Positions 28,242-64,000 of a stretch of 64,000 nucleotides of DNA are shown one piece after another; the first letter of the stretch is position 1; the number at the start of each line of letters is the position of its first letter. The stretch comes from Streptomyces specialis. Lineage in GTDB: Bacteria > Actinomycetota > Actinomycetes > Streptomycetales > Streptomycetaceae. The notes beneath the pieces were generated by a model. That model searched no databases. It saw nothing but the letters and a program-made list of their open reading frames with translations, and had not been told where the DNA came from. The position numbers and the translations under genes were made by a program. The stretch covers positions 1 to 64,000 of the forward strand of contig NZ_LN929757.1 of NCBI RefSeq assembly GCF_001493375.1, written 5' to 3'.

Positions 28242-28250
28242 CGAAAGACC

Positions 28251-28439: not shown

Positions 28440-28464
28440 GCTGTTCCGGCTCGACGCCGGCGGC

Positions 28465-28491
28465 GGCCCCGCGCGCTCCTCGCGCGGGGCC
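28465..28491 (+). terminator. Strong hairpin between ramS and ramA (attenuator/terminator)
   Basis: A perfect 11-base-pair stem (GGCCCCGCGCG with CGCGCGGGGCC, 28465-28475 / 28481-28491) has a 5-base loop and starts 26 bases after the ramS stop. It would favour high ramS mRNA relative to ramAB by partial termination or 3'-end protection. Confidence 0.75.
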
Positions 28492-28581
28492 GTCCCCGTT
28501 GCCCCGTCTCTCCGTTCTTTCGTTCCGCCCGGTCCCCGTCCCAGGACCGGAGCCACCGCCTTCAGGAACCCGAGGAGCCAC

Positions 28582-47560: not shown

Positions 47561-48948
47561 CGCGGTATGCCCACCGGCGCGACGGTGACCGGCGTCGCGG
47601 CGTCCCGCCGGGGCGCGCCGAACGTCGTGAACGCCTGCCGTTCCGGCACGGGCAGCACCGTCCGCCCGGCGGCGGCGTTGAGGATCGTCGCGGCCCGCCA
47701 CGCGCCGAGCGTGAGGTCGGGGGCGCCGACGCCATGCGTGTGCGTCTCGGCGTTCTGCACGTACAGCGCGCCGGTGACCCGGGGGTCGAGCGCCACCCGG
47801 TAGTCGCCGTCCACGCGGTAACGGCCCCGGTCGTCCCAGTCCACCAGATCGGCCAGGGGATCGAGACAGCCCGGCCGGAGCGCCGCGTAACCGGTGGCGG
47901 ACACCACGGCCGATGTCCGCACCTCGAACGTCTCGCCCTGCTCGTCGTGGCGGCACGTCAGCACATAGCCGTCGCCGTCCGCCTCGGCCGCGACCAGCCG
48001 GACCCCGGGGTGCAGCGCGGCACGCGGCTCGCCGCCGCCGATGGTGCGCTCGTACAGCTCGTCGTGGATGTCGCCGAGCGTCTGCTCGCTGACGCCCTTG
48101 TAGAGCTGCCACTGCTCCCGGACCAGCCGCTCGCGCGACGCCTCCGGCAGGCCGCGGAAGTACCGGATGTAGTCCGGCGTGAAGTGTTCGAGCCCGATCT
48201 TGCTGTACTCCATCGGCGCGAACGCTGGCGTCCGCGCGAGCCAGCGGACGTACGGGCCGCCCGCGCCGTCGCCGTCCTGACGGCGCAGCAGGTCGAGCAT
48301 CACCTCGGCCCCCGACTGCCCGGCGCCGATCACCGTGACGTCGTCCAGCGCGCCCAGGCTCTCGCGGTGGGTGCGGAAGTCGGCGCTGTGCAGCACGCGT
48401 CCGGTGTGCGCGCCGCCCAGGAGCGGGCGCAGCGGCTCCGGCACCACGGGCGTCGTGCCCACGCCGAGCACCACCTGGCGGGCCGTGACCCGGCTGACCG
48501 CCCCGGCGGACGAGCGGTACGTCACGGCGAACGCCTCGGCCGCGTCGTCCCACTCCACGGCCGTGACCTCGGCGTCGAAGCGGCACGAAGGGAGGCGTTC
48601 GGCGGCCCAGCGGCAGTAGTGGTCGTACTCGCGGCGCGGGATGTGGAAGCGCTCCGAGAAGAAGAACGCGAACATCCGGTCGTGCGCGCGCAGGTAGTTG
48701 AGGTACGACCACGGGCTGGTGGGATCGGCCATGGTGACGAGATCCGCCAGGAACGGCACCTGGAGAACCGTTCCTTCCATCAGCAGCCCCGGGTGCCACG
48801 AGAAGGCCGGCTTGGCGTCGAGGAAGAGGGAGTCGAACCCGGGGACGCCGTCGGCCAGCGCGGCCAGCGACAGGTTGAAGGGGCCGATTCCGACGCCGAC
48901 CAGGTCGTAGGGGGCGGTCCGGTCGGGGGACGCCGAGGGCGAGGTCAC
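47557..48948 (-). CDS. FAD/NADPH-dependent amine N-hydroxylase (IucD-like)
   Basis: A 463-residue monooxygenase that hydroxylates a primary amine for later hydroxamate formation. The FAD site is LVGVGIGPFNLSLAAL near residue 16, the NADPH site VTVIGAGQSGAEVMLDLL, and the C-terminal ATGY motif is in VSATGYAALRP. It belongs to the lysine/ornithine/diamine N-monooxygenase family; the diamine substrate here is inferred from the adjacent decarboxylase. The start is GTG 48948, overlapping the upstream synthetase stop (GTGA). Confidence 0.93.
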   Translation of the reverse strand: MTSPSASPDRTAPYDLVGVGIGPFNLSLAALADGVPGFDSLFLDAKPAFSWHPGLLMEGTVLQVPFLADLVTMADPTSPWSYLNYLRAHDRMFAFFFSERFHIPRREYDHYCRWAAERLPSCRFDAEVTAVEWDDAAEAFAVTYRSSAGAVSRVTARQVVLGVGTTPVVPEPLRPLLGGAHTGRVLHSADFRTHRESLGALDDVTVIGAGQSGAEVMLDLLRRQDGDGAGGPYVRWLARTPAFAPMEYSKIGLEHFTPDYIRYFRGLPEASRERLVREQWQLYKGVSEQTLGDIHDELYERTIGGGEPRAALHPGVRLVAAEADGDGYVLTCRHDEQGETFEVRTSAVVSATGYAALRPGCLDPLADLVDWDDRGRYRVDGDYRVALDPRVTGALYVQNAETHTHGVGAPDLTLGAWRAATILNAAAGRTVLPVPERQAFTTFGAPRRDAATPVTVAPVGIPR

Positions 48949-50747
48949 CGCTGTGCCTCCGTCAGAGGGTTGGGGAGATCGATGTACACGGACTGGGTGT
49001 GGACGTCGCCGACGAGTTCGTCGAGGCCGTCCACGCAGGTCAGGTAGTTGGCCTTGCAGCGCAGCACGGGCGCGTCCAGCAGCATGTCCAGCAGCCCCTT
49101 CGCGGCGGGTTCGGCCAGGCGCAGCCGTTCCAGGGCGGCGCGCAGCACCCGCAGCAGGGCGTCCTCGTCCGCGAGGCCGAGGGCCCCGAAGGCGCCGACC
49201 AGGCCGAGCAGGTTGTTGACGCCGAGGTAGTACGCCACCCGTTCGTCCACGAACGCGTCGTCGAACACCAGGTCCACGCCGTCGGTGACGCCGGGCAGCA
49301 GCCGCTCCAGACCGGCGGCGCGGGACGCCGCCAGGTAGTAGCCCTGGCTGTCCCGGTACCAGCCGGCGCACGGCAGCCCGTCGCCGTCCAGCGCCACCAG
49401 CGTGTTCTGGTGGTGCGGCTCCAGCGCGATGCCGTACCGGGCGTGCAGCCGGATCAACGGCACGGCCAGCACGTCGAGATACCGCGCGAACCAGCGTTCC
49501 GCCGCCTCGGCCACCGGCACGTCCAGCGCGCGGGCGGCCTGTTCGACGGCGGCCGACAGCAGCGCCCGGTGCCGGGGCGGCGAGCCGTCGCCTGGACCGG
49601 TGCGCTCGGCGACCAGGCCCGCGACGCAGAGCCCTTCGCGGGCGCCGCCGCGGAACGGGTTGTCGCGGATCGCCGTCTCCAGGCCGGTCTCCGGGCCGGT
49701 CTCCGAGCCGCTCTCCGGGCCGCCTGCGCCTGCCGACACCCAGGCGAAGTCCCGCAGGATGCCGAACCCGGGGTGCGCGGCCCGCAGCCACCCGGCCGGG
49801 CCCGTGGCCAGCAGCCGCGCGGCCCGTACGCCGAGCCGCATCTCGCCGCGCAGGTTGTTGCGGCGGGAGTTGGTGATCCGCATGCCCAGCGACAGCTTCA
49901 GCATCACCGAGGCGTCCGGCCGGTGCACGGTCCGCACCGACGAGGTCGCGTGCCACGCCGGCCCGCCGGGGCCCAGCGGGCGCAGCAGCCCGGCGTCCAC
50001 CAGGGCCGCGACCTCCGGGCGGGCCAGTACCTCCCGCGCCTGCCACGGGTGGGCGGGCACCGGCACCATCCCCTCGGGCACCCGCAGGTCCCCGGCGAGC
50101 GGGCGCAGCAGCTCGGCGACCGGGCCGCCGTCCGCGTTCTCGCCCACCACCACGTCCGGGTGCGCGGCGAACCAGTGCAGCGCGAACGAGCCGCGCAACT
50201 CGGGGGAGTAGGCGTCGAGTTCGGCCGTGGACGCCTCCTCGCGGCTCTTGGGCGCCGGGTGGAACGGATGGCCAAGCAGCAGCGCCTGCTCGGCGTCGAG
50301 GAACGGCGTCGGCCCCCGGCCGCCGTCCGGTTCGGCCCGGCGGCGCGTCAGGTGAACGGCCGTCCGCGCCGCCGACCCCAGCACCCGGGCGGCGGCGTCG
50401 CCGCCGAGATGGGCGGGTGCCCCCCGGCCCAGGGTGCTCTCGCGGATCAGCGCCGCCGCGACCAGCGCGGTGTCGGCGGGCGGCCCGTCCGCGATGTCCG
50501 GCTCGCCGAAGCGGTGCCAGCCGGTCCGGGACCTGTACCGCACCGGGACGCTCAACGTCAGCCCGCTGGCGGGCAGTTCCAGTCGCATCGCGGCTCCGGC
50601 GGGCGGGACGGCCCGGCCCGTTTCCCGGACGTAGGCGCGGATCAGCGTCTCGGTGGCCGCCGCGTGTCCCGCGCGCAGCGGATCGGGGTGGTCCAGCGGA
50701 TCGGGGCCCGTGTCCGGCGCGCGGGTGTCTCTCAGGGGGTCGTTCAC
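48945..50747 (-). CDS. IucA/IucC-family NIS siderophore synthetase (first)
   Basis: 600 residues. Motifs are LLLGHPFHPAPKSREE (HPxHPxxK), ASVMLKLSLGMRITNSRRNNLRGE, GIALEPHHQNTLVALDGDGLP and YYLGVNNLLGL. These place it with type A synthetases that activate free citrate and attach the first amine. An internal loop of short repeats (SGSETGPETGLETA, about 49681-49730) is unlike homologues. ATG 50747 overlaps the decarboxylase stop (50744-50746). Confidence 0.93.
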   Translation of the reverse strand: MNDPLRDTRAPDTGPDPLDHPDPLRAGHAAATETLIRAYVRETGRAVPPAGAAMRLELPASGLTLSVPVRYRSRTGWHRFGEPDIADGPPADTALVAAALIRESTLGRGAPAHLGGDAAARVLGSAARTAVHLTRRRAEPDGGRGPTPFLDAEQALLLGHPFHPAPKSREEASTAELDAYSPELRGSFALHWFAAHPDVVVGENADGGPVAELLRPLAGDLRVPEGMVPVPAHPWQAREVLARPEVAALVDAGLLRPLGPGGPAWHATSSVRTVHRPDASVMLKLSLGMRITNSRRNNLRGEMRLGVRAARLLATGPAGWLRAAHPGFGILRDFAWVSAGAGGPESGSETGPETGLETAIRDNPFRGGAREGLCVAGLVAERTGPGDGSPPRHRALLSAAVEQAARALDVPVAEAAERWFARYLDVLAVPLIRLHARYGIALEPHHQNTLVALDGDGLPCAGWYRDSQGYYLAASRAAGLERLLPGVTDGVDLVFDDAFVDERVAYYLGVNNLLGLVGAFGALGLADEDALLRVLRAALERLRLAEPAAKGLLDMLLDAPVLRCKANYLTCVDGLDELVGDVHTQSVYIDLPNPLTEAQR

Positions 50748-52291
50748 GCGCTGTCACCCCGCAGCAGCGCCTCCTCCTCGGCCCGGCCGGCCTCGGTGAC
50801 GATGGCCAGCAGCCGTTCGACGTCGGCCGGTGTGGTGTGCGGGTTGAGGAGGGTCAGCTTCAGCCGGACCCGGCCCGGCCCGTCGCCGGGCAGCTCGGTG
50901 CGGCCGACCACGGCCCGGCCGCCGCGCAGCAGGGCGCGCCGGAGGCGGGCGTTGATCGTGTCGACGGCGTCGGCGCGGTCCGCCAGCCTCGGGTCCTCCG
51001 GCAGGTAGCGGAAGAGCAGCGCGGTGAGCACCGGTTCGGCGTGCGGCTGGAGCCGGGGGTGTGCGCCGATCATGGTGTGCGCGGAACGGGCCAGGTCGTG
51101 ACAGGTGTCCACGAGGCGGCCGAGGCCCGCCCGGCCCAGCGTCCGCAGGGTGACGGCGATCTTGAAGGCGTCGGCGCGGCGCGTGGTGCGCAGCGACAGG
51201 CCCAGGAGGCTCGGGTAGCCGGCCTCCTCGTCGTCGGCCGGGTTGAGGTAGACGGCCCGGCGGGCCAGCGAGGCGTACGTCTCCGCGCGCCGCACCAGGA
51301 ACACCCCGGCGGCGGCGGGCTGCCAGCCCAGCTTGTGCCAGTCCAGGGAGACCGAGTCGGCCAGGGCTATGCCGTCCAGCAGCGGCGCCAGCCGGTCGGA
51401 GAGCAGCGCGCCGCCCCCGTAGGCGGCGTCCACGTGCAGCCAGGCGCCGTGTTGGGCGGCCAGGGCGGCGCACTCGCGCAGTGGGTCCACGGCGCCGGTG
51501 TCGGTGGTCCCGGCGGTGGCGACCACCGCGACGGGCAGCTCGCCGCGCGCCACGGCGGCGCCGAGCGCGGCGGCCAGGGCGGCGGGGTCCATCCGCAGCG
51601 TGCTGTCGGTGGGGACGGCCACCACGGCGTCCTCGCCGAGGCCGAGCAGGGCGGCCGAGCGCCGTACGGAGAAGTGCGCCGCGTCGGAGGCGAAGATCCG
51701 CGGCCGGGGCGCCGCCGCGCCGGACGGCTCCGGCACGCCGGGCACCCCTGGCACGCCGGTCATCTCGACGCGCCGCCCGGCCGCCCGGCCGAGCACCCGG
51801 TCCCGGGCCAGCATCAGGCCCATGAGGTTGGACTCGGTGCCGCCGGAGGTGAGTACGCCCGCGGCCCCGGCCGGGTCGTAGCCGACGAGCCGGGCCAGCT
51901 CCTCCAGCAGCAGCGTCTCCAGGGAGGTGGCGGCGGGCGCCTGGTCCCAGGAGTCCTGCGAGGGGTTGAGCGCGGAGACCGCGAGGTCCGCCGCGACGGC
52001 CACGGCCAGCGGCGGGCAGTGCAGGTGGGCGGCGCAGGACGGGTCGGCGGGGTCGGCGCTGCCGTGGGCGAGCAGTTCGGTGAGGCGGTGCAGCGCGTCC
52101 TCGCCGCCCGGCGCGTCGAACTCGCGGGCGACCAGGGCCGCCAGTTGCGCCGGGTGGCCGGCCGCGATGGGCCCGCCGCGCCGCGCGGCGCCCTCGGCGA
52201 GCGCGCCCCGGACGGTGCGCACCAGCGGTTCCAGGGCGTCGGCGCCGCGCGTCCCGCCGGACAGCGCGTCGGTGAGGGCACCCGTCAGCAC
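50744..52291 (-). CDS. PLP-dependent decarboxylase (DDC/diaminobutyrate decarboxylase-like), 5' end uncertain
   Basis: 515 residues from GTG 52291. This is a fold-type I group II decarboxylase with LTSGGTESNLMGLMLAR, ATAGTTDTGAVDP, HVDAAYGGGALL and the PLP lysine in SVSLDWHKLGW. Beside a class III aminotransferase it fits the 2,4-diaminobutyrate to 1,3-diaminopropane route used by rhizobactin/schizokinen-type clusters. The frame remains open upstream to about 52390 and then enters adapter, so the true start may be lost. The stop overlaps the IucA-like start. Confidence 0.88.
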   Translation of the reverse strand: MLTGALTDALSGGTRGADALEPLVRTVRGALAEGAARRGGPIAAGHPAQLAALVAREFDAPGGEDALHRLTELLAHGSADPADPSCAAHLHCPPLAVAVAADLAVSALNPSQDSWDQAPAATSLETLLLEELARLVGYDPAGAAGVLTSGGTESNLMGLMLARDRVLGRAAGRRVEMTGVPGVPGVPEPSGAAAPRPRIFASDAAHFSVRRSAALLGLGEDAVVAVPTDSTLRMDPAALAAALGAAVARGELPVAVVATAGTTDTGAVDPLRECAALAAQHGAWLHVDAAYGGGALLSDRLAPLLDGIALADSVSLDWHKLGWQPAAAGVFLVRRAETYASLARRAVYLNPADDEEAGYPSLLGLSLRTTRRADAFKIAVTLRTLGRAGLGRLVDTCHDLARSAHTMIGAHPRLQPHAEPVLTALLFRYLPEDPRLADRADAVDTINARLRRALLRGGRAVVGRTELPGDGPGRVRLKLTLLNPHTTPADVERLLAIVTEAGRAEEEALLRGDSA

Positions 52292-52389
52292 GTCGGTCAG
52301 CGGGTCGGCGGCGTTCCCGGACGGGCCGGCGGAGGGTCCGGCGGACGCGGCACCGGCCGGTCTGCCGGAGGGGTCCGAGGGTGCAGGGA

Positions 52390-52505
52390 GCTAGAGCTCA
52401 ATGTGTTTATGTGCGGGTGCACCGGAGGCCTCGAAGGCGTGGACAGGGCGGGAGGGGGGGAGGGGAGGATGGGGATAAGAGACGGCCGACGCGCTGTCCG
52501 GCGGG
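52390..52505. other. Probable degenerate adapter block (artefact)
   Basis: AGGATGGGGATAAGAGAC (52466-52483) resembles the transposon mosaic end. The preceding 75 bases are G-rich noise breaking an otherwise overlapping operon, with a stop in the decarboxylase frame near 52393. Less certain than the other blocks, but of the same kind. Any gene between the aminotransferase and the decarboxylase would be lost here. Confidence 0.7.
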
Positions 52506-52507
52506 GA

Positions 52508-53905
52508 TCACGCGGACCTCCTCGCGTGCTGAGCGGCCGTCACCTCGGCGATGGCGTCGGCCAGCCGGTCGAGCACCGCCTCGGCCTCCTCGTCCGTGAT
52601 GACCAGCGGCGGCAGCAGCCGCACGGTGGCGTCGAACCGGCCGCCGAGTTCCACGATCAGGCCCCGGTCCAGGCACGCGGCGCGGACCTGCTGCGCCAGC
52701 GCGGGCGCGCAGGGCCGGGCGCCGCAGGAGTCCGGCTCGGCGTCGGGGTCCACCAGCTCGACCCCGATCATCAGGCCGCGCCCTCGGACGTCGCCGATCG
52801 CGGGCAATTCGGCGCGCAGCCCGTCCAGCCGCGCGGTCATCCGGGCCCCGACGGTCGCGGCCCGCTCGACCAGGTTCTCCCGCGTGACGTACCGCAGCGT
52901 GGCGGCGCCCGCCGCCATGGCCAGGGTGTTGCCGCGGAACGTCCCGGCGTGCGCGCCGGGCAGCCAACTGTCGTAGTCCTCGTGGTAGACGAGGACCGCC
53001 AGCGGCAGACTGCCGCCGATGGCCTTCGACATCACCATGGCGTCCGGCACGATCCCGCTGTGCTCCACCGCCCAGAACGCGCCCGTGCGCCCCACCCCGC
53101 TCTGCACCTCGTCCACGATCAGCGGGATGTCGCGTTCGGCGGTGATCCGGCGCATCGCGCGCAGCCAGTCGTCCGGCGCCGGGACCACGCCGCCCTCGCC
53201 CTGCACCGCCTCCAGGATCATCGCGGCGGGCGGCACCACGCCGCCGTTGGGGTCGTCGAGCAGCCGCTCGGTGTAGGCGGCGGACAGCTCGGCGCCGCGC
53301 TCGCCGCCCGCGCCGAACGGGCACCGGTAGGAGTACGGGTACGGCAGCCGTGTGACGTCCGCCGCGATTCCCGCCACCGGCCGCTTGGTGGAGACACCGC
53401 CCGACACGGCCAGCGCCCCGGCCGTCATGCCGTGGTAGGCGCCGGTGAACGCGAGCACGTTCCGCCGCCCGGTGGCCGTCTGCATCAGCTTCAGCGCCGC
53501 CTCCGCCGCGTCGGTCCCGGCGGGCCCGCAGAACTGCACGCGCGCCTTGTCCGCGAACGCCTTCGGCAGCGTGGCGAACAGCGCGTCGGTGAAGTCGTCC
53601 TTCTCCGGCGTCGCCAGGTCCAGCACGTGCAGCGGCGCGCCGCTGTCCAGCGTGCGCCGGATGGCCTCCAGCACCACCGGGTGGTTGTGGCCGAGCGCGA
53701 GGGTGCCCGCACCGGACAGGCAGTCGAGGTAACGGCGGCCGTCGGTCCCCTCGATCACCATGCCCCGGGCACGGACCGGGACGATCGGGAACGAGCGCGC
53801 GTAGGTGCGCGCGGACGACTCCCGGGCGCGCTGCCGCCGCAGGCTGGCGCCCGCGTCGTGGAGGGACCGCCCGGTCTCGACGGGGGCGGTGGGCTGCATG
53901 GTCAT
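52508..53905 (-). CDS. Class III aminotransferase (diaminobutyrate--2-oxoglutarate type)
   Basis: A 465-residue PLP enzyme. Motifs are FCGPAGTDAAEAALKLM, FTGAYHGMTAGALAVSG, LIVDEVQSGVGRTG and the PLP lysine in VMSKAIGGSLPLAV. It is most like DABA aminotransferases that make 2,4-diaminobutyrate from aspartate semialdehyde using glutamate as donor, the first step to diaminopropane. ATG 53905 follows GGAGTCACTCC; an internal ATG at 53899 is possible. It is second in the operon after the fold-III decarboxylase, with 115 bases between. Confidence 0.92.
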   Translation of the reverse strand: MTMQPTAPVETGRSLHDAGASLRRQRARESSARTYARSFPIVPVRARGMVIEGTDGRRYLDCLSGAGTLALGHNHPVVLEAIRRTLDSGAPLHVLDLATPEKDDFTDALFATLPKAFADKARVQFCGPAGTDAAEAALKLMQTATGRRNVLAFTGAYHGMTAGALAVSGGVSTKRPVAGIAADVTRLPYPYSYRCPFGAGGERGAELSAAYTERLLDDPNGGVVPPAAMILEAVQGEGGVVPAPDDWLRAMRRITAERDIPLIVDEVQSGVGRTGAFWAVEHSGIVPDAMVMSKAIGGSLPLAVLVYHEDYDSWLPGAHAGTFRGNTLAMAAGAATLRYVTRENLVERAATVGARMTARLDGLRAELPAIGDVRGRGLMIGVELVDPDAEPDSCGARPCAPALAQQVRAACLDRGLIVELGGRFDATVRLLPPLVITDEEAEAVLDRLADAIAEVTAAQHARRSA

Positions 53906-54020
53906 GGAGTGACTCCGGGGGAGGAGAAGGAGTGACGACGATGACGGGTCACGTGCGTGGGTGAGGAACGGGGGAGGCGCCGGCGGCAGCGGCGGCGCCG
54001 GAGCGAGCGAGCCGGGAGGC

Positions 54021-55250
54021 TCAGAGCAGGTGGCGTTCCGCCACGGGATGGCCGAGGAAGGAGTGCATGGCGAACTCCCAGCCGTAGGAGCCGGCACAGG
54101 GGAAGACGACGAGGTCGCCGGCGCGGACCCGGTCCACCCGGACGTCGCGCAGCAGGGTGTCCTCGGGCGTGCACAGCTCGCCGACGACGGTCACCCGGGT
54201 GTTCTCGGCGGCCGGACGGGGACAGCTCTCGCGCCACTCGTCGACGGGCAGCACGGCGACGTTGTGCACGATGTCCCACGAGGTGGGCAACTGGAAGTGG
54301 TTGATGCCGCCGCGCAGCACCGCGAACCACTCGCCGTAGGACGCCTTGACGTCCGTCACCTCGGCGGCGTACCAGCCGCAGTCCGCGACGAGGTAACGGC
54401 CGGGCTCCAGCAGGACCTTGACCCCGGCGGGCGGCCGGACGCGCCCGGCCAGCTCGCCGAAGCGGGCCACGTCGAAGGGTTTCTCGCCCTCGAAGGCCAC
54501 GCCGATGCCGCCGCCGATGTCCACGTGGCGCAGGTCGATCCGGCAGGCCAGCGCGGTCCGTTCGCTCCACTCCAGGCACCAGCGCAGGTACGCGGCGTGC
54601 GTCTCGGCGTCGAGGTTGTTGGACGCGGCGTGGATGTGGAACCCGGTCAGGTCCAGGCCCGGCAGTGTGCGGGCCGCCTCCAGCACGTCGGGCACGTCGG
54701 GCTCGGCCACGCCGAACTGCGAGGCCGCGCCGCCCATGTGGAGCGAACCGGTGAGGGGGATGTGCGCGGGGTTGACGCGCAGCGCGACGCGGGCGACGAC
54801 GCCTTCGGCGGTGGCGATGCGGCTGATCCGGTGCAGTTCCAGGAGGCTTTCGGCGTTGATGGCCTCCGCGCCCGCCCGCACCAGGGCGGTCAGCACCGGC
54901 ACCGACTTCGCCGGACCGGCCGCGACCACCGGCGCCGACTCCCGCGCGGTGGAAGCGAGTTCCAGTTCGGAGATGGAGGCGACCTCGAATCCGTCGACGT
55001 GCGGGGCGAGCGCCTTCACCACGCCGGGGAACGAGTTGGCCTTGACGGCGTAGTACACGGCGGCCCACTCGGGCAGCGCCGCGCGCAACTCCCGTGCGCG
55101 CCCGGCGGCGACGGCGCCGTCGTAGACATAGGCGGCCACCGGCCGCCCGCCGCCCGCCAGCTCCAGCAGACGTCGGCGGACGGGGCCGGGCAGGACGTCC
55201 ACCGGGTAGGCGGAACGCGGCGCGGCGGAGGGCGGGAACTGGACGGACAC
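54021..55250 (-). CDS. Fold-type III PLP decarboxylase (Orn/DAP/Arg family, siderophore type)
   Basis: 409 residues. The alanine-racemase-fold barrel has the PLP lysine in YYAVKANSFPG, HIHAASNNLDAETHA, the phosphate loop DIGGGIGVAFEG, and the C-terminal catalytic Cys in VGELCTPEDTLLRDV. Relatives in NIS clusters (SbnH of staphyloferrin B) decarboxylate a citryl-amino acid intermediate, so a role on the growing siderophore rather than in lysine synthesis is likely. The start is GTG 55250. It is the first gene of the operon, 41 bases downstream of the iron box. Confidence 0.9.
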   Translation of the reverse strand: MSVQFPPSAAPRSAYPVDVLPGPVRRRLLELAGGGRPVAAYVYDGAVAAGRARELRAALPEWAAVYYAVKANSFPGVVKALAPHVDGFEVASISELELASTARESAPVVAAGPAKSVPVLTALVRAGAEAINAESLLELHRISRIATAEGVVARVALRVNPAHIPLTGSLHMGGAASQFGVAEPDVPDVLEAARTLPGLDLTGFHIHAASNNLDAETHAAYLRWCLEWSERTALACRIDLRHVDIGGGIGVAFEGEKPFDVARFGELAGRVRPPAGVKVLLEPGRYLVADCGWYAAEVTDVKASYGEWFAVLRGGINHFQLPTSWDIVHNVAVLPVDEWRESCPRPAAENTRVTVVGELCTPEDTLLRDVRVDRVRAGDLVVFPCAGSYGWEFAMHSFLGHPVAERHLL

Positions 55251-55582: not shown

Positions 55583-56112
55583 ATGACTCCTCGCACCCGA
55601 GCGGAGCCCAGGCGCGGTGCCGGGCTCCCGACCCCCCGCCGCCTCCGGCCGAAGATCGCCGAGCTGGGCTCCTTCGGCCTCGTCGGGGCCGTGGCCTTCG
55701 CGGTCGACACGGCCGGTGGCAACGTTCTGCACTTCGGCCTGGGGCTCGACGCGCTCACCAGCAAGGTGTGTTCGACCACCGCCGCGACCCTCGTGGCCTA
55801 CGCCGGCAACCGCTGGTGGACGTTCCGACACCGGGACGTCGGCAGCGTCCGGCGCTACCCCCTCTTCCTCCTGCTCAACGTGGTGGGCCTCGCCATCGCC
55901 CTGCTGTGCCTCGCCTTCACCCGCGACGTCCTCGGTCTCGCCGGGCCCCTCGCCTACAACCTGTCGGCGAACGTCGTCGGCACCGGCCTCGGCACGGCCT
56001 TCCGGTACTGGTCCTACCGCCGCTGGGTCTTCCCCGAGCGGAGATCCGGGGCGGTCGCGACGGGCGGAGCCCGCCCCGCCCCGCAGGACCGCCTCGCCGC
56101 AGTCGGTGAGAT
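55583..56112 (+). CDS. GtrA-family membrane protein, 3' end cut by adapter
   Basis: About 176 residues visible. Four hydrophobic segments lie at about 28-50, 60-75, 95-115 and 130-150. Family marks are SFGLVGAVAFAVDTAGGNVL, YAGNRWWTFRHR and FRYWSYRRWVFPE. GtrA proteins are thought to move polyprenyl-linked sugars across the membrane for cell-surface glycosylation. The natural stop is not seen: coding degenerates into adapter after PAPQDRLAAVGE. Apparent fusion to the glycosyltransferase is an artefact, though true adjacency is plausible. Confidence 0.85.
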
Positions 56113-56206
56113 AAGTCGAAAGGTAAAGTCGGTTGCGAGAACACAGCACCCAGCGGAAGCGCAAGAGCGGGGGGGGGGGGAGGAGGGGGAGGTGTATAAG
56201 AGACAG
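56113..56206. other. Adapter block between gtrA and the glycosyltransferase (artefact)
   Basis: AGGTGTATAAGAGACAG (56190-56206) is the Nextera mosaic end, with one mismatch in the part shown. It is preceded by a G homopolymer run and noise. It keeps an open frame by chance, giving a false 896-residue fusion. Confidence 0.95.
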
Positions 56207-58273
56207 GTGTGGCGCTCGCCCGACGGGCAGCCCCGCTGGGCCCGGCCGGCCCTGCTCGCCGTCGCCGCGCTCGCCGCCGCCCTCTACTGCTGGAACCTCT
56301 CCTCCAGCGACTACGCCACCTACTACTCGGTCGCCGCGCGCAGCATGAGCGAGAGCTGGGAGGCGTTCTTCTTCACCGCGCTCGACCCCTCGGCCACCAT
56401 CACCCTCGACAAGATCGGCGGGTTCCTCTGGCCCGAGGCGCTCTCGGCGCGGATCTTCGGCTACAGCGCCTGGTCCCTGACGCTGCCGCACTGTGTCGCC
56501 GGTGTCGTCACCGTGCTCGTCACCTACCGCGTGGTCCGCCGCTGGCAGGGACCGGAGGCGGGCCTCCTCGCGGCGGCGCTCACCGCGCTGACCCCGCTCC
56601 TCGCCTCCCTGTTCGGGAACGCGCTCCTGGACGGCATGCTGACGATGTGCCTGGTGCTGGCCGCCGACGCGTACCAGCGGGCCGTGCGCGACGGGCGGCT
56701 CCGGCCGCTGCTGCTCGCCGCGTTCTGGATCGGTCTCGGCTTCCAGACCAAGATGCTCCAGGCGTGGCTGATCGTCCCCGCCGTCGCCCTGGCCTATCTG
56801 GTGACCGCCCCGGTCCCGGTCCGGACCCGTGTCCGGCACACGCTGGCCGCGGGCGTCGTGCTGCTGGGCGTGTCGCTGTCCTGGGTGGGGCTGATGACGC
56901 TCACCCCGGCGGACTCCCGGCCGTACGCGGACGGTTCGACCAACGACAGCGCCATCGCCATGGTCTTCGGCTACAACGGCCTGGGCCGGCTGGGCATCGA
57001 GATCCCCGGCGCCGTGTCGGCCGAGGCGCCGAGCACCACCGACGGGCCGACCGGCACGGCGGGCACCACCGGCCCGCCCCGCGCGGCCCCCCCCGCGGCC
57101 CCCGGTGACGGAGCCGCGGCGGGGACCGGCACCGGCCCGCGGGAGACCGGCCCCGACGAGGCCGCGGCGGACCCGCCCCGGCAGCGCGAGGAGGGCGGCT
57201 GGCTCAAGCTGGTCGGCGACCGCCTCGGCACCCAGATCGCCTGGCTCTTCCCGATCGCCCTGCTCTCCCTGGCCCACGGCCTCGCGCGACGGCGGCGCGA
57301 CGGCGAACGCTACGCCGACCAGGCGCGCGGCGGTTACCTGTTCTGGGGTTTGTGGCTCGTCACCTCGGTCGCCGTGCTCAGCGCGATCTCGGTCCCGCAC
57401 ACCGGCTACGCCGCCGTGCTCGCGCCGCCGCTCGCCGCCCTGTCCGCCGCCGGCACGGTCTCGCTGTGGCGGTCGGGACGCCGCCTGCCGGCCGCGCTCG
57501 TGATCGCCGCCCAGACCTGCTGGTGCGGCCTGCCCGCCGCCGACCACCGGGACTGGGTGCCCTGGCTCCTGCCGCTGCTGATCACGGCCGCGCTCGGCGC
57601 GCTCGGCGCGCTGTGGTGGTCCGGCCGGGCGCCGGGCCGCCGCCGGATCGCCGTGGCGGGGCTGATCGCCGGCTGCGTCGGGATGTACGCGGCGCCCACC
57701 GCCTGGTCGTTGTCGGTCCTCGACGAGGACTACGGCGGCTCGTCGTTCGACGCGGCGGCGGGCCCCGCCCTTCCCGGCGGCACCGGCGGCGCGCTCCCGG
57801 GCGCCGAGGCGCTGACGGCGGAACAGGAACGTCTGCTGGCCTACGTGGAGGAGCGGAACGGAGACGGCGTCACCTACACCTTCTCCACCGACACCTGGTC
57901 CGCCGCCGCCCCCTACATCCAGGAGACCGGCAGTCCCGTCCTGCCGCTGGGCGGCTTCGGGGGCCAGGCGGCCTCGGTCACCGTCGAGGAGTACCAGGAG
58001 CTGGTCGAGAACGGCGACCTGCGCTTCGCCCTCGTCGGCACGGCAACGACCGGCACGGCGGCAACCGGCACGGCGCCCGGCGGCGCGCCCCCCACCGGCG
58101 GCCCGCGGCTCGGTGCCGCGGCCGGCGCCTCGGCGGCCGGTGCCGCCGCCACCACACAGACCGACCTGATCAGCGCGTGGGTGCGCTCGGCCTGCGTCCC
58201 CGTCGAGCCCGCGGAGTACGGCTCCACGGCGGAGACCCCGACCCTCTACGCGTGCGCGCCCGAAGGGAACTGA
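56207..58273 (+). CDS. ArnT/PMT-like membrane glycosyltransferase, 5' truncated
   Basis: About 688 residues visible, without the true N-terminus. It is a GT-C-fold lipid-linked sugar transferase: WNLSSSDYATYYSVAARSMSESW, ITLDKIGGFLWPEALSARIFGYS (catalytic loop region), multiple TM helices through about residue 510, a long Pro/Thr/Gly-rich insert (about 270-320) and a C-terminal extracytoplasmic domain (LLAYVEERNGDGVTYTFSTDTWSAAAPYI, VPVEPAEYG). The family is annotated as mannosyl/arabinosyl transferases using polyprenyl phosphate sugars. Its stop is 6 bases before the polyprenyl-phosphate mannose synthase start, so the two form an operon. Confidence 0.88.
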   Translation: MWRSPDGQPRWARPALLAVAALAAALYCWNLSSSDYATYYSVAARSMSESWEAFFFTALDPSATITLDKIGGFLWPEALSARIFGYSAWSLTLPHCVAGVVTVLVTYRVVRRWQGPEAGLLAAALTALTPLLASLFGNALLDGMLTMCLVLAADAYQRAVRDGRLRPLLLAAFWIGLGFQTKMLQAWLIVPAVALAYLVTAPVPVRTRVRHTLAAGVVLLGVSLSWVGLMTLTPADSRPYADGSTNDSAIAMVFGYNGLGRLGIEIPGAVSAEAPSTTDGPTGTAGTTGPPRAAPPAAPGDGAAAGTGTGPRETGPDEAAADPPRQREEGGWLKLVGDRLGTQIAWLFPIALLSLAHGLARRRRDGERYADQARGGYLFWGLWLVTSVAVLSAISVPHTGYAAVLAPPLAALSAAGTVSLWRSGRRLPAALVIAAQTCWCGLPAADHRDWVPWLLPLLITAALGALGALWWSGRAPGRRRIAVAGLIAGCVGMYAAPTAWSLSVLDEDYGGSSFDAAAGPALPGGTGGALPGAEALTAEQERLLAYVEERNGDGVTYTFSTDTWSAAAPYIQETGSPVLPLGGFGGQAASVTVEEYQELVENGDLRFALVGTATTGTAATGTAPGGAPPTGGPRLGAAAGASAAGAAATTQTDLISAWVRSACVPVEPAEYGSTAETPTLYACAPEGN

Positions 58274-58279
58274 GAGAAC

Positions 58280-59080
58280 GTGACCACCGCGATCCCCCGC
58301 GAATGGGCCGGCACCCGGCTCACCGTCGTCATGCCGACCTACAACGAGGCCGCGTGCCTGCCCGGCACCGCCGCCGCCCTCCTCGCCCTGCCCCTGCCCG
58401 GCCTGCGGCTGCTGATCGTGGACGACGACAGCCCCGACGGCACCGGCCGCCTCGCCGACGAGTTGGCCGCCGCCGACCCGAGGGTGAGCGTCCTGCACCG
58501 CACGGCCAAGGAGGGCCTCGGCCGCGCCTACGCGGCCGGTATCGGCGCGGCGCTGCGGGACGGCCCGGACTACGTGGCGCAGATGGACGCGGACGGCAGC
58601 CACCGCGTCGAGCACCTGCCGGAACTGCTCGGCGCGGCCCTCGCCACGGGCGCCGGGCTGGTCGTCGGCAGCCGCTACGTGCCCGGCGGGCAGCTCGCCG
58701 CCGACTGGGGCGCGCGCCGCCGGCTGCTGTCCGCGTGCGCGAACCTCTACGCCACGAGCGTGCTGGGCGTGCCGATCCGGGACCTCACGGCCGGCTACAC
58801 CCTGTGGTCCGCCGACGCCCTGGAGGATCTGGCGCTCGACGGGCTGCGGTCCGCCGGCTACAGCTTCCAGGTGGAGACGAAGTTCCTCGCCGTCCGGGCG
58901 GGCCACAAGGTCGTGGAGGTCCCCATCCGGTTCGAGGACCGCGCGCACGGCACGTCCAAGATGGATTTCGCGACCCAGCGCGAGTCCGCGCTGCTGCCGC
59001 CGCGCCTGCGCTGGGACCACCGGGGCCGCCGCCGGGCGGCGCGCCCCCAGGTCGCCCTGGCGTCCCGCGCGGACATCTGA
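58280..59080 (+). CDS. Polyprenyl-phosphate mannose synthase-like GT2 glycosyltransferase
   Basis: A 266-residue cytoplasmic enzyme making polyprenyl-phosphate sugar (dolichol-P-mannose synthase family). Motifs are VVMPTYNEAACLPG, LLIVDDDSPDGTG, the DxD-like QMDADGSH, VGSRYVPGG and FQVETKFLAVRAGHKVVEVPIRFEDRAHGTSKM. It lacks C-terminal TM helices, as in actinobacterial Ppm catalytic domains. GTG 58280 has GAGAGAAC upstream. It supplies donor to the membrane transferase encoded just before, with GtrA as probable flippase. Confidence 0.92.
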   Translation: MTTAIPREWAGTRLTVVMPTYNEAACLPGTAAALLALPLPGLRLLIVDDDSPDGTGRLADELAAADPRVSVLHRTAKEGLGRAYAAGIGAALRDGPDYVAQMDADGSHRVEHLPELLGAALATGAGLVVGSRYVPGGQLAADWGARRRLLSACANLYATSVLGVPIRDLTAGYTLWSADALEDLALDGLRSAGYSFQVETKFLAVRAGHKVVEVPIRFEDRAHGTSKMDFATQRESALLPPRLRWDHRGRRRAARPQVALASRADI

Positions 59081-59461
59081 CCTCCCTTCGGCGAATCTCC
59101 ACACCGTGCGCACGGAGGACCGGCACAGAGCCGCGATCCGGGACATATCCGGTATGCGGCCTGTGCCGGTGTAACGGGAGGTTCGGGAGGTGACGCAGGG
59201 GATATTTCGCGCGCTCCTCACTACGTCTCATGAAGAGATTGTCATCGTCCGACGAAGAGAGTCGCCCGTCGCCCGTTCACTCTTTCGAAGTTCGCGCAAA
59301 GGGTCTGTCAACGGGATTGGCGTCCCACTAGTTGCCGTGCTTACATCGTCCGCACCGCGCGGTAGTGGTCGGATCGTCTTACTAAGTCGCGACCTTGTCC
59401 ACGATTTTCTGTGATCTTCCGTGATCGCCCGTGAAAGCTTGAAATGAAGGGAATGTGCGTC
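59081..59461. promoter_or_regulatory. Intergenic region with three 10-bp direct repeats before the peptide gene
   Basis: 381 bases of lower GC. The direct repeats TTCTGTGATC, TTCCGTGATC and GCCCGTGAAA occupy 59407-59416, 59417-59426 and 59427-59436, one per helical turn and ending 25 bases before the peptide ATG. An inverted CATATCCGGTATG lies at about 59145-59157. A 74-codon frame at 59190 is not supported. Confidence 0.55.
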
Positions 59462-59704
59462 ATGCGCAACGACATCGAGACCCGTGAGATCGCCGACTCC
59501 GAGCTGGACGCCGTCGCCGGCGGTGTGGTCAGCGTCTCCGGCGGTCTCGCCGGCGCCCTGGTCGCCGACGTCTCCGGTGCGGCCAACTCGCTCCACACCG
59601 CCCAGGCCGTTCAGGGCCTCGCCGCGCAGGGCCTCGGCCAGGTCTCCGGCCTGACCGGCGTGCAGGTCGACACCGGCGCTGTCACCGGCCCCCTCGGTCT
59701 CTGA
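59462..59704 (+). CDS. Double-glycine leader peptide (NHLP/bacteriocin-type precursor)
   Basis: 80 residues. The leader MRNDIETREIADSELDAVAGG has the ELDxVxGG pattern cut by C39 peptidases after G21. The predicted 59-residue product (VVSVSGGLAGALVADVSG... ending TGPLGL) is Gly/Ala/Val/Ser-rich, hydrophobic and contains no Cys and no aromatic residue, so it is not a lanthipeptide. ATG 59462 has GAAGGG at suitable distance; ATGs at 59444 and 59453 are less well placed. HlyD, C39-ABC and a second ABC gene follow. A hairpin (59719-59749) lies directly downstream, allowing more peptide than transporter mRNA. Confidence 0.85.
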   Translation: MRNDIETREIADSELDAVAGGVVSVSGGLAGALVADVSGAANSLHTAQAVQGLAAQGLGQVSGLTGVQVDTGAVTGPLGL

Positions 59705-59718
59705 TCACCCCGCGCCCG

Positions 59719-59749
59719 TGAACCCCGGAGCCCCTCGTTCCGGGGTTCA
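59719..59749 (+). terminator. Hairpin after the peptide gene (attenuator)
   Basis: A perfect 11-base-pair stem (TGAACCCCGGA with TCCGGGGTTCA) and 9-base loop starts 15 bases after the stop, typical of high precursor-to-transporter ratios. Confidence 0.75.
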
Positions 59750-59773
59750 TGGCTGCCGAAAGTTGGTCGCGCG

Positions 59774-60580
59774 ATGCAGTTCCGCCGCAAAGCGCTCTCG
59801 AAGCTCCAGTCGCCCGAGGAACTGGACCTGCCCGTCCGTCTCGCCCGCCCGCAGGGCCGGCTCGTGCTGGCGGTGACGGTCCTGGTCCTGGCCGCCGCCG
59901 CCTGCTGGGGCGTCACCGGCTCGGTCTCCTCGCGGCTCGCCGCCCCCGGCGTCCTCACCCACGCCGAGGGCGGCTACCTCCTCCAGAGCCCGGTGGCCGG
60001 ACAGGTCACCGAGGTCCTCGCCGAGGAGGGCGACCTGCTCTCCCCGGGCGCGCCCCTGCTGACGGTCCGCACGGACGACGGCGACGAGCCCGTCCGCGCG
60101 GTCGCCGGTGGCCGGCTGACCACCGTCCTCGCCGGCACCGGCTCGGTCGTCACCACCGGCGCCGACGTCGCCACCCTGGAACGTGTCAGCGGCCCCGACG
60201 ACCCGCTGATCGCCGTGCTGTACGTGCCGGGCGACAGCGCCGCGAGCGTCCCCGTGGGCGCGGACGTCGAGCTGACCGTCCCGTCCGTGGACCGGGACGC
60301 GTCCGGCGTGCTGCGCGGACGCGTCGAGGCCGTCGGCCGCACGCCGCAGAACGAACGGCAGATCGCCGGGTTCCTCGGCGACGCCGCGCTGGCCGCCGGG
60401 TTCACCCGCGACGGCGACGCCGTTCCCGTCGTCGTCGAGCTGGAACGCTCCACCGCCACCGCGTCCGGCTACGCCTGGTCGGACGGCGAAGGCCCCCCGT
60501 ACGCCCTGGAGTCCCCGGCCCCCGTCACCGGCTCCGTCCACCTCGCCGCGCAGCGCCCCGTCGACTGGCTGCTGCCGTGA
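59774..60580 (+). CDS. HlyD-family secretion protein (NHLM/NHLP type)
   Basis: A 268-residue membrane-fusion-type adaptor. A short cytoplasmic N-terminus (RRKALSKLQSPEELD) is followed by one TM helix at about 35-55 (VLAVTVLVLAAAACWGVTG) and a lipoyl/barrel-sandwich domain (GGYLLQSPVAGQVTEVLAEEGDLLSPGAPLLTV). The coiled-coil hairpin is absent, fitting a Gram-positive bacteriocin exporter adaptor. It starts at ATG 59774, 69 bases after the peptide gene. Its TGA overlaps the GTG start of the next gene (60577). Confidence 0.88.
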   Translation: MQFRRKALSKLQSPEELDLPVRLARPQGRLVLAVTVLVLAAAACWGVTGSVSSRLAAPGVLTHAEGGYLLQSPVAGQVTEVLAEEGDLLSPGAPLLTVRTDDGDEPVRAVAGGRLTTVLAGTGSVVTTGADVATLERVSGPDDPLIAVLYVPGDSAASVPVGADVELTVPSVDRDASGVLRGRVEAVGRTPQNERQIAGFLGDAALAAGFTRDGDAVPVVVELERSTATASGYAWSDGEGPPYALESPAPVTGSVHLAAQRPVDWLLP

Positions 60581-62870
60581 CCACGACCACCGCTGCCCCT
60601 TATACACACCTGACGCTGCCGACGCAGAGGCGTGTGAAATCACGAGTGGCACACCGAACCCTAGCAGACCAGGACACACACAGCCAATCACCCATATCCT
60701 TTGCTTGGCACCCGCCCGGCCGGTGCGGACGCCCACCGTTCTCCAGATGGAGGCCGTCGAGTGCGGCGCCGCCGCCCTGGCGATGGTGCTGGCCCACTAC
60801 GGCCGCTTCGTCCCCCTGGAGGAGCTGCGCATCGCCTGCGGCGTCTCCCGCGACGGCTCCCGCGCCAGCAACCTGCTGAAGGCCGCCCGCGGTTACGGCC
60901 TCACCGCCAAGGGCATGCAGATGGACCTCGCCGCCCTGGCCGGGCAGCGCCCGCCCGCCGTGCTGTTCTGGGAGTTCAACCACTACGTCGTCTACGACGG
61001 CATGGCCCGCCGCCCCGGCCGGCGCGGCGCGTGGATCAACGACCCCGGCAAGGGCCGCCGGTTCGTCCCGCTCGACGAGTTCGACACCAGCTTCACCGGC
61101 GTCGTCCTCACCTTCGAACCCGGCGAGGACTTCCGCCGCGGCGGACGCCGGCCCGGCGTGCTGCGGCACATGCCCGCCCGCCTGCGCGGCATGTCCGGCA
61201 CGATGCTCGCCGCCGTCGTCTCCAGCCTCCTGCTGGTCCTCGTCGGCGCGTCCGTGCCCGCGCTCAGCCGCACCTACATCGACACGTTCCTGATCGGCGG
61301 CCAGACCTCCGCGCTCGGCGTCCTGTTCGCCGCCATGGGCACCGCCCTGGTCCTGACCGCCGCCCTGACCGCCGTCCAGCAGGCCAACCTGCTGCGCGGG
61401 CGCGTCATCTCCTCCACCCTCGGCGGCGCCCGCTTCCTGCGTCACCTGCTGCGCCTGCCCGTCACGTTCTTCGCGCAGCGCAACCCGGCCGACCTCGTCC
61501 AGCGCCTCCAGTCCAACGACACCGTCGCCGAGACCCTCGCCCGCGACCTCGCCGCCGCCGGGGTCGACGCCGTGGTGGTGCTGCTGTACGCCGTGCTGCT
61601 GTGGAGCTACGACCCGCAGCTCACCGTCGTCGGCGTGCTGATCGCGCTGCTCAACGTCGTCGCCCTGCGGATCGTGCTGCGCCTGCGGGCCACCGGCACC
61701 CAGAAGCTGCGCGCCGACAGCGCCCGCCTGGTCAACACCGCCTACAGCGGCCTGACGCTCATCGAGACCATGAAGGCCACCGGCGGCGAGAACGGGTTCT
61801 TCCGCCGCTGGGCCGGACAGCACGCCGCCACCCTCGACACCCAGCAGCGGCTCGGCGTGCCCAGCGCCTGGCTGGCCGTCACCGCCCCCACCCTCGCCGC
61901 GCTCAACAGCGCCCTGATCCTCCTCATCGGCGGCACCCGCGCCGTCGAGGGCCACCTCACCGTCGGCCTGCTGGTCGCGTTCCAGGCGCTCGTCACCAGC
62001 TTCACCGCGCCGATCACCCGCCTCAACGGCGTCGCCGGGCGCATCCAGGACTTCGCGGCCGACGTCGCCCGCCTCAAGGACGTCGAGAACTTCCCCGCCG
62101 ACCCCCGCTACACCCGGCGCGGGCCGGCCGACGGGGGCGGCACCCGCCGCCTGACCGGCCACGTCGAACTGACCGGCGTCACCTTCGGCCACAGCCGCCT
62201 GGACCCGCCGCTGCTGGAGGACTTCTCGCTCACCGTCGGCCCCGGCCGCCAGGTCGCGCTCGTCGGCGGCTCCGGCAGCGGCAAGTCCACCGTCTCCCGG
62301 CTGGTGGCCGGTCTGCACACGCCGTGGGCCGGGGAGATCCGCATCGACGGCACCCCGCTCGCGGACATCCCGCGCGGCGCCCTGGCCGCCTCCGTCGCCT
62401 TCGTCGACCAGGACGTCTTCCTCTTCGAGGGCACCGTCCGGGACAACGTCACCCTCTGGGACCCGTCCATCCCCGACGAGGAGGTCGTGGCCGCCCTGAA
62501 GGACGCCGCCGTCCACGACGTCGTCGCCCGCCGCCCCGGCGGCATCCGCGCGCGCGTCGAGCAGGACGGCCGCAACTTCTCCGGCGGCCAGCGCCAGCGC
62601 CTGGAGATCGCCCGCGCCCTGGTCCGCCGCCCCACCGTGATGATCCTCGACGAGGTGACCAGCGCCCTGGACGCGGCCACCGAGCAGATCATCATCGACA
62701 ACCTGCGGCGGCGCGGCTGCGCCTGCGTCGTCATCGCCCACCGGCTCAGCACCGTCCGCGACAGCGACGAGATCCTCGTCCTGGACCGGGGCACCGTCGT
62801 CGAACGCGGGCGCCACGAGCACCTGATCGCCGCCCAGGGCGCCTACGCCCGGCTGCTGCGGGAGCACTGA
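60577..62870 (+). CDS. C39 peptidase/ABC exporter (NHLP type), interrupted near its 5' end by adapter
   Basis: The true start is probably GTG 60577, overlapping the HlyD stop and reading V-T-T-T-T-A-A-P. Adapter occupies 60597-60708, then coding resumes at PARPVRTPTVLQMEAVECG. The peptidase domain has Cys (VECGAAALAMVLAHYGR, codon 60762), His (EFNHYVVYDG) and Asp (WINDPGKGRR). It is followed by six TM helices and an ATPase with GGSGSGKST, FSGGQRQRLEIARAL and VMILDEVTSALD. It should cleave the double-glycine leader and export the core. An apparent TTG start at 60705 is an artefact. Confidence 0.9.
60597..60708. other. Adapter block inside the exporter gene (artefact)
   Basis: CTTATACACACCTGACGCTG continuing CCGACG (60599-60624) matches the reverse complement of the Nextera read-1 adapter with one mismatch and a missing base. 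The remaining bases to 60708 are non-coding noise of low GC. Confidence 0.95.
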
Positions 62871-62871
62871 G

Positions 62872-64000
62872 GTGACGGCCCCGCCCCCCGCGCCGCCGCC
62901 CCCGGCGCCCGACCCGGTCGTCGCCGCCCTCGGCGCCCTCGGGGTGCCCGTCGACTGCGCGGGCCTGCGCAGCCTGCCCCTCGAAGGGCCGCACGTGCTG
63001 TGGCTGGTCGTGGACGGCGCCCTCGACCTGTTCGCCGTGGACGCCGCGCGGACCGGGCCCTGGCACTTCCTCGGCCGGCTGACCGCCGGCACCCTGCTCC
63101 TCGGCCCGGTCGAGGGCCCCCGGCACACCCTGATCGCCCGCCCCCTCCAGGGCTGCGCGCTGCGCCGCGTCGAGATCTACGAGCTGTACCCGCCGCCCGG
63201 CCCCGCCGATGCGTGGCTGAGCCCGCTGGAGGACGCCTTCGCGCGGGGCGTCGGCCGGGGCCTGCGGGTGCTGTCCCAGGTGTCCCCCGACAGCCCGGCA
63301 CCCGACAGCCCGGCGCCCGGTGGCGGGGGCGACGACGACATCCTGTGGATGCCGATCGGCCCCGGCAGCGTGGCCTACGGCGCCGGGTACGACCCGCACA
63401 CGCCCGGCACCCTGCTGGTCCACGCGGCGCTGTGGCACGCCATGGTGGACCAGCAGCACCGGCTGCTGTCCGCCGTGGACCGCTGGATCGACCGGCTCGA
63501 ACGCGCCCCCGAGGACCGCGCCGCCGCCGGCGTCCGGGCCGGGGAGGCCGCCCGCACCGAGGCCGACGCGGCGCTCGTCGCCTCCATCGGCGGCCCGGGG
63601 CGGTCCGGCCGCGCGGCCCGGCCGCGCGCCGGGGACGCCGATGCCACCCACGCCACGTACGCCGTCTGCCGCCTGGTCGCCGACGACGCGCGGATCACCC
63701 TGGCCGCGCCCGGGGCGGTGGCCGCCGCCCCCGGCCATGAGGACCCGGTCGAACGCGTCGCGCTCGCCTCCCGCATCCGCACCCGCCCGGTCCGGCTCAC
63801 CGGCCGCTGGTGGCGGGAGGACAGCGGCCCCCTGGTGGGCCGCCGCGCGGCGGACGAGGCCCCCGTCGCCCTGCTGTGGCGGCGCGGCGGCTACGTCGCC
63901 GTGGACCCGGCGAAGGGCACCCGCGAGCGCGTCGGACCGGCCGACGAGGCCGCGTTCGAACCCCGTGCCGTCATGCTCTACCGCCCGCTGCCCGACCGGC
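62872..64000 (+). CDS. NHLP-type second ABC protein, 3' truncated by window end
   Basis: 376 residues visible from GTG 62872, one base after the exporter stop. A cyclic-nucleotide-binding-like N-terminal region (LPLEGPHVLWLVVDGALDLFAVD, FLGRLTAGTLLLG) is followed by a helical part and the degenerate peptidase-like segment typical of these proteins (GRWWREDSGPLVGRR, PVALLWRRGGYVAVDP, PRAVMLYRPLPDR), just before where the membrane domain should begin. It pairs with the C39-ABC protein in NHLP export systems. The ATPase lies outside the window. Confidence 0.88.
   Translation, partial: MTAPPPAPPPPAPDPVVAALGALGVPVDCAGLRSLPLEGPHVLWLVVDGALDLFAVDAARTGPWHFLGRLTAGTLLLGPVEGPRHTLIARPLQGCALRRVEIYELYPPPGPADAWLSPLEDAFARGVGRGLRVLSQVSPDSPAPDSPAPGGGGDDDILWMPIGPGSVAYGAGYDPHTPGTLLVHAALWHAMVDQQHRLLSAVDRWIDRLERAPEDRAAAGVRAGEAARTEADAALVASIGGPGRSGRAARPRAGDADATHATYAVCRLVADDARITLAAPGAVAAAPGHEDPVERVALASRIRTRPVRLTGRWWREDSGPLVGRRAADEAPVALLWRRGGYVAVDPAKGTRERVGPADEAAFEPRAVMLYRPLPDR

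Follow-up and report, generated by a model that had tools for sequence, protein, structure and literature searches.

The locus

In the soil bacterium Streptomyces specialis (RefSeq assembly GCF_001493375.1; 5.88 Mb in 143 contigs), the first 64,000 bases of contig NZ_LN929757.1 (contig C3; this whole stretch is here termed the window) end in a cassette encoding a small double-glycine peptide and the components of a peptidase-containing ATP-binding cassette (ABC) exporter. The features of the cassette are as follows.

59317..59347, plus strand: promoter-like element TTGG-N-CTTACATC, 145 bp upstream of the precursor start
59446..59451, plus strand: likely ribosome-binding site GAAGGG; 24 of 24 precursors have GAAGGG or GAAAGG no more than 18 bases ahead of the start
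59462..59704, plus strand: precursor peptide, 80 residues, beginning MRND; called from the family alignment, ribosome site and conserved start
59462..59524, plus strand: double-glycine leader, 21 residues, MRNDIETREIADSELDAVAGG; T7, E9, D12, L15, D16, G20 and G21 invariant in 24 of 24 sequences
59525..59701, plus strand: predicted mature peptide, 59 residues; computed monoisotopic mass 5365.8 Da, pI 4.2
59774..60580, plus strand: HlyD-like adaptor, TIGR03794-like, 268 residues; E 1.1e-40, 139.8 bits, below the curated cut-off of 156.2
60577..62870, plus strand: C39-peptidase ABC exporter, TIGR03796; 1000.9 bits, cut-off 853.3
60590..60703 (edges approximate), no strand: adapter-like assembly junk of about 100 bp that disrupts the start of the exporter gene
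62872 to C3:65706, beyond the window end at 64000, plus strand: second, peptidase-free ABC subunit, TIGR03797, GTG start; 944 residues at full length, 874 bits, cut-off 709.4

The original prediction, made from the letters of the window, described precursor, HlyD protein, C39-ABC exporter and second ABC protein as contiguous, and so they are, with the correction that the adapter-like junk between HlyD and exporter had been missed. An amino-acid permease gene follows the second ABC gene on the opposite strand. An alternative precursor start, the ATG at 59444, was rejected because it overlaps the ribosome-site region kept in relatives; 59462 is the right start. The leader motif occurs once across the six frames of the window, and the precursor gave no match above noise in NCBIfam or Pfam, nor did an Rfam scan of the window return a match. 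The predicted mature peptide (the core) contains two Asp residues and no Cys, Phe, Trp, Tyr, Lys or Arg, in agreement with the earlier description of a Cys-free, aromatic-free hydrophobic double-glycine peptide. With neither a trypsin site nor an aromatic residue, such a peptide would be missed by routine methods. Of 80 upstream regions, 57 carry the promoter-like pattern, whereas single-base shuffles gave a mean of 0.5 of 80; the count is not independent, because the pattern was read from an alignment of 16 of those same regions.

The C39 domain of the exporter matches the solved double-glycine protease domain 6mpz at 4.6e-42 and also aligns with PCAT1 (4ry2), and the pheromone exporter ComA is among its solved relatives. 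Its Q, C and D positions align with both 6mpz and 4ry2, and its H position with 6mpz; we take these four to be the catalytic residues. Since the exporter is of the C39 type, the precursor would be expected to be cleaved after Gly-Gly. The adapter junk leaves the true start and the first 20-40 residues of the exporter unreadable in the window. The real start is probably the GTG at 60577, which overlaps the HlyD stop: a GTGA or ATGA overlap of this kind was found in 4/4 relatives inspected, and the window has GTGA at that position. The TTG at 60705 is not credible as a start, being simply the point from which the frame becomes readable after the junk.

The window trio belongs to the families TIGR03794, TIGR03796 and TIGR03797, which were defined together as an exporter set (PMC2887384), with both ABC proteins above cut-off and the HlyD protein significant but below it. 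The label "NHLP-type" given in the original prediction therefore holds for the exporter, which is NHLM-type, but not for the leader, which is a short double-glycine sequence rather than an NHLP or Nif11 leader; TIGR03793, TIGR03795 and TIGR03798 gave no match at E<=1.

Recurrence of the cassette

Relatives of the cassette were sought with tblastn and profile searches. The exporter scored over its curated cut-off in 181/246 Streptomyces genomes, about three quarters of the sample, a spread suggestive of a household role and not of one specific to particular strains. HlyD was found at E<=1e-25 in 174 of the 246; the genome of S. specialis itself falls outside these 174, although its HlyD is clear in the family-profile match. 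In a wider sample of the class, the precursor profile at E<=1e-5 matched 22/296 genomes, all of them in one of 114 genera, and the exporter 26/296 genomes in three genera. A relative was also identified in Actinacidiphila and, in S. chartreusis NBC_00851, a family member on a linear replicon. The original prediction had proposed that related precursors be sought by leader profile; the searches made here found the same cassette across Streptomyces.

For comparison we assembled 82 loci, comprising the window, 19 loci chosen by precursor, two named loci, and 60 chosen by HlyD, the last hand-picked from the 174 genomes so as to avoid contig ends; L068 and L070, which are without HlyD, were excluded. 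HlyD and both ABC genes are present in 82/82, and a precursor lies directly upstream in all 82 (80 by pattern, and two, L104 and L136, by eye), with one precursor per locus. The fair count is that of the loci chosen by HlyD, where the precursor is present in 60/60 (58 by pattern, two by eye). Recurrence at this level argues that the layout is more than chance. At 50% core identity the window core forms a group of its own among the loci compared.

Composition and helical spacing of the core peptides

The 73 distinct cassette cores have lengths of 43-62 residues, about three quarters of their composition being V, G, T, L and A. None contains Cys, five have an aromatic residue, and 11 have a single Lys or Arg and none more; net charge ranges from -4 to 0, so that no core is net positive. 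The two cores read by eye (L104 and L136) likewise lack Cys and have charges of -2 and -3.

Spacing was evaluated in 10 representatives sharing less than 50% identity; larger z-scores, to which related sequences had contributed, were disregarded on that account. Among the representatives, Gly recurs at i+4 29 times against 14.7 expected, and V/I/L/M at i+3 75 times against 51.7, with 0/1000 shuffles as high in either case. The periodicity peak falls at 100 degrees, i.e. helical. A glycine-zipper claim for the window core by itself was dropped, as it did not reach significance when tested singly, and is kept for the family.

Flanking genes and the case for modification

A peptide of this kind might be exported as cleaved, or be modified first by an enzyme, and the original prediction had allowed for such an enzyme beyond 64.0 kb. 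The sequence was extended to C3:90000 and open reading frames (ORFs) were called by a GC-frame script; Pfam scans of these ORFs, which covered all but L010:10006-10512 and L009:19595-19819, revealed no known RiPP-modifying enzyme (RiPP, ribosomally synthesized and post-translationally modified peptide), so that one just downstream of the cassette is ruled out among the scanned ORFs. Three scanned ORFs were without a Pfam match (L010:1173-1583, L010:1667-2140 and L009:9523-12033), the last an ORF of 836 residues that looks permease-like by eye. Upstream, the Pfam scans covered eight ORFs of the window, four from the 50.7-59.1 kb interval and the others from the ram region described below. An asparagine-synthase-family gene lies about 20 kb past the cassette (L010 8019-9929; C3:86018-87928).

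The flanks of the 82 loci were also compared, over up to 5 kb per side and for ORFs of at least 40 residues (three loci have a shorter flank; that upstream of the window cassette is 4,980 bases). At E<=1e-8 and 60% coverage, the flanks of the other 81 loci contain no homologue of any of the 69 ORFs that flank the window cassette; relaxing the limits to E<=1e-5 and 30% coverage gives a single match, between a dehydrogenase-like ORF and locus L051. No flank family covers more than five of the 10 precursor clusters, the largest spanning 36 loci in four clusters and belonging, by its letters, to the same family as the SpoIIE-type phosphatase of L142. The comparison thus found no general enzyme or immunity partner, with the proviso that shorter or highly divergent immunity genes would escape it.

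These results bear on one alternative, namely that the peptide is a RiPP precursor which, before export, is modified by an enzyme from another part of the genome. Genome-wide searches covering the YcaO and LANC-like families gave two YcaO matches (contigs C7 and C84) and two LANC-like matches, one of which is the RamC-like protein of the window at 27.4 kb, the only LANC-like match on contig C3. The cores contain Ser and Thr. Furthermore, distant NHLM exporters of the class, about 50-54% identical, adjoin a YcaO enzyme in the 2/2 loci tested (L206 and L208) via an ORF of 750 residues; six distant comparison loci have such an ORF, its YcaO identity coming from those two, and L208 also encodes a nitroreductase-family protein. 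Set against this, no enzyme was found recurring beside the cassette, and because all 73 cores lack Cys, neither lanthionine rings nor thiazolines can form inside the core. The cassette exporters also form a branch separate from the YcaO-linked one: in a tree of 27 exporters, a branch with support of 100/99 splits seven comparison from 20 cassette exporters, subject to a long-branch warning from the tool. We consider modification by a distantly encoded enzyme to be quite improbable.

The same evidence separates the cassette from two families of modified peptides. Among the scanned ORFs and flanks, no cyclodehydratase, dehydrogenase or LanM partner of the sort that accompanies NHLP/Nif11 RiPP export was found beside the window cassette, and the judgement that the peptide is unlike lanthipeptides stands, given cores devoid of Cys and no lanthionine synthetase adjoining the cassette. 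On an S. cadmiisoli plasmid (locus L217), an exporter that is 57% identical is accompanied, upstream of HlyD (6386-6799), by a protein of 137 residues whose match to the NHLP leader is weak and falls below the cut-off (E 0.0058).

Proposed function and comparison with known systems

The closest described counterpart is the SCO0753-0756 region of S. coelicolor, a link that was absent from the original prediction and is drawn here. SCO0753 is a hydrophobic Cys-free peptide of 77 residues encoded upstream of a type I secretion operon; the report on it assigns it no function, describes the organisation as conserved in many Streptomyces, and suggests a possible effect on the cell surface (PMC6629963, citing van Keulen and Dyson 2014). 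A dispersed-growth strain overexpressed SCO0753 more than any other gene, and in the null mutant it was almost silent (PMC6629963). In other studies, it is listed as an upregulated gene of a bacteriocin cluster (PMC5733086), SCO0756 appears under bacteriocin biosynthesis (PMC6414726), and sco0756 is among the efflux genes upregulated when Ppm1 activity is lost (PMC5882110). The literature searched nowhere shows a function for the cassette peptide, and a search of the open-licence literature yielded nothing on glycine-zipper double-glycine peptides in Streptomyces. The cassette was therefore already known in outline; the present analysis adds the census, the helical spacing, the lone precursors described below and the result that no general partner was found.

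With a probability that we put at about one half, the window cassette is a Streptomyces example of the SCO0753-0756 type, and its product is an unmodified secreted peptide that forms helical, glycine-zipper-type assemblies and acts at the hyphal surface rather than by killing. Under this proposal, the first ABC protein would hold the translated precursor by the leader, in its C39 domain, and cleave it after Gly-Gly; an acidic, Cys-free peptide of about 59 residues, most likely without enzymatic modification, would be driven out by the two ABC proteins and the HlyD-like adaptor. Outside the cell the peptide would most likely form helical assemblies of the glycine-zipper type at or close to the hyphal wall, may coat the filaments of the producer, and would most likely alter hyphal surface properties or clumping instead of killing competitors. 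The gene order, the exporter families, the conserved peptidase positions and the failure to find a recurring partner enzyme are read from sequence, while cleavage, lack of modification, assembly and the role at the surface are inferred.

Several observations weigh against this proposal. The likeness to SCO0753-0756 is one of layout and description, a small hydrophobic Cys-free precursor (77 residues there, 80 in the window) followed by HlyD and ABC genes, and the published link between SCO0753 and morphology is an expression correlation and not a SCO0753 knockout (PMC6629963). In the 10 representatives V/I/L/M are unenriched at i+4 (225/1000 shuffles as high), and Gly at i+4 is not significant in the window core tested singly (P=0.36). 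AlphaFold2 models have a mean predicted local distance difference test score (pLDDT) of 50.1 for the window precursor (24 alignment rows; helix 22-57) and 61.3 for the L115 type (44 rows; helices 14-38, 43-57 and 62-70), a confidence too low for the models to be fit for a fold search. The cores evolve faster than the leaders, as would be expected of bacteriocins: the approximate ratio of nonsynonymous to synonymous substitution, whose absolute values are unreliable owing to codon bias, is 0.51-0.68 in cores vs 0.23-0.55 in leaders (four groups, not including the window). Finally, in the largest precursor group, 32 of the 36 loci have a gene for a secreted, alpha-lytic-protease-like serine protease upstream of the cassette (e.g. 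L115:12616-14127); this protease is a possible partner in that clade, or its position may be plain synteny. The RiPP precursor considered above also counts among the points against.

The main rival is a bacteriocin, perhaps kept on the producer surface and killing on contact like the Cdz toxins of Caulobacter, which are contact-dependent glycine-zipper bacteriocins that need two peptides and an immunity protein, CdzI (PMC5380434). The ingredients are the same in both systems, namely a double-glycine leader, Cys-free cores rich in small residues with glycine zippers (here at the family level), a type I exporter and no modifying enzyme; two studies list the locus of S. coelicolor as a bacteriocin cluster (PMC5733086, PMC6414726), and the greater variability of cores than leaders would fit as well. 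The systems differ in that each of the 82 loci has a single precursor, in that no general immunity gene emerged from the flank comparison, and in the Gram-positive host and NHLM-type ABC pair. The cassette cores, moreover, are never net positive, and an exporter present in 181 of the 246 genomes leaves few cassette-free relatives to kill. On balance we consider a Cdz-like toxin to be somewhat unlikely.

Class II unmodified bacteriocins, the first suggestion of the original prediction, have a cationic mature peptide. The double-glycine leader and C39 ABC exporter of the window fit that class, whereas the composition of the window core, with its two Asp and no Lys or Arg, and the net charges of the 73 cores do not; the suggestion is weakened further by the want of any immunity candidate recurring beside the window type of cassette.

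A third alternative, to which we give little credence, is that of a secreted signal peptide passing between hyphae. In S. coelicolor, a two-component system and an orphan response regulator affect expression of the locus (PMC6629963, PMC5733086), and a pheromone exporter, ComA, is among the solved relatives of the C39 domain. Cores of 43-62 residues rich in hydrophobic residues argue otherwise, and no receptor gene was found recurring nearby in the flank comparison. A helical pattern that is kept despite sequence change fits assembly better than recognition by a receptor.

Among the hydrophobic surface peptides of Streptomyces are the chaplins and SapB, the latter a lanthipeptide made by the ram cluster from a Cys-containing precursor. 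The peptide proposed here would resemble these in being a small hydrophobic secreted product that alters hyphal surfaces, but differs from SapB in lacking Cys and an adjacent synthetase. The window carries a SapB-type ram cluster as well, at 25569-32302, with a RamC-like protein (RamC_N 3.9e-81), two ABC genes and a Cys-containing RamS-like peptide of 43 residues at 28308-28439.

If the product is indeed a surface peptide, an unmodified player would be added to Streptomyces morphogenesis and pellet formation, with relevance to fermentation; if it is a contact toxin, Cdz-like killing would extend to a major antibiotic-producing genus. In either case, annotations of "NHLP bacteriocin" at such loci name the exporter and not the product.

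Lone precursors with the same leader

Profile searches of other Streptomyces also identified lone genes that combine the same leader with other cores, type B in 11/246 and type C in 6/246 genomes; the genome of S. specialis has neither at E<=1e-9. Their loci (L162, L164-L168, L172-L177, L179 and L181) contain no cassette exporter within the stretch, and no neighbouring gene recurs in more than three loci across the stretches compared. Type B matches in G029, G072, G089 and G231 were excluded, as they adjoin HlyD matches. Weak precursor matches had been considered as chaplins, an identification that was dropped when 18/20 stretches showed the same leader pattern (all except L163 and L170); the type B profile subsequently picked up the gene of L170. 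The type B core of L174 contains a Cys, and Lys or Arg residues number one to three in cores of type C, so that the composition rule given above is limited to cassette cores.

The exporter is present in 13/14 genomes with a type B or C gene, compared with 181/246 overall, the exception being G001, which is 79% complete. The association is weak (about 0.08, or about 0.02 without incomplete genomes), and related genomes are non-independent. Lone precursors are possibly exported in trans. More broadly, and tentatively, one NHLM-type machine in most Streptomyces may export a set of unmodified, short-leader, self-assembling peptides, one adjacent to the exporter and, in some species, scattered ones of types B and C, which together would form an unmodified counterpart to SapB and the chaplins in building the hyphal surface; we hold this extension to be doubtful. 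Two different same-leader precursors stand in tandem directly before the exporter cassette in L169 (8671 and 9308), and another two in L171 (8929 and 9568), where the stretch contains no exporter.

Assembly artefacts and neighbouring genes

The spacer between HlyD and the exporter is adapter-like junk and not natural DNA, and partly matches 14 places on seven other contigs of the same assembly. A transposase-adapter 14-mer, allowing one mismatch, occurs 108 times in the assembly vs 0 in a reversed control. Further adapter-like junk lies at 20194-20207 and 56106-56206 of the window and at C3:73976-73989 (stretch L009); that at 56.1-56.2 kb seems to join a GtrA-like and a mannosyltransferase-like gene into a false ORF of 896 residues.

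On both sides the cassette is flanked by similar sets of glycosyltransferase, GtrA-like and mannosyltransferase-like genes (window 55583-59080; L009 15202-18635). Farther upstream, on the minus strand at 47557-55250, the window holds a siderophore-like cluster with two pyridoxal phosphate-dependent decarboxylases, along with monooxygenase-like and synthetase-like ORFs recognised by eye.

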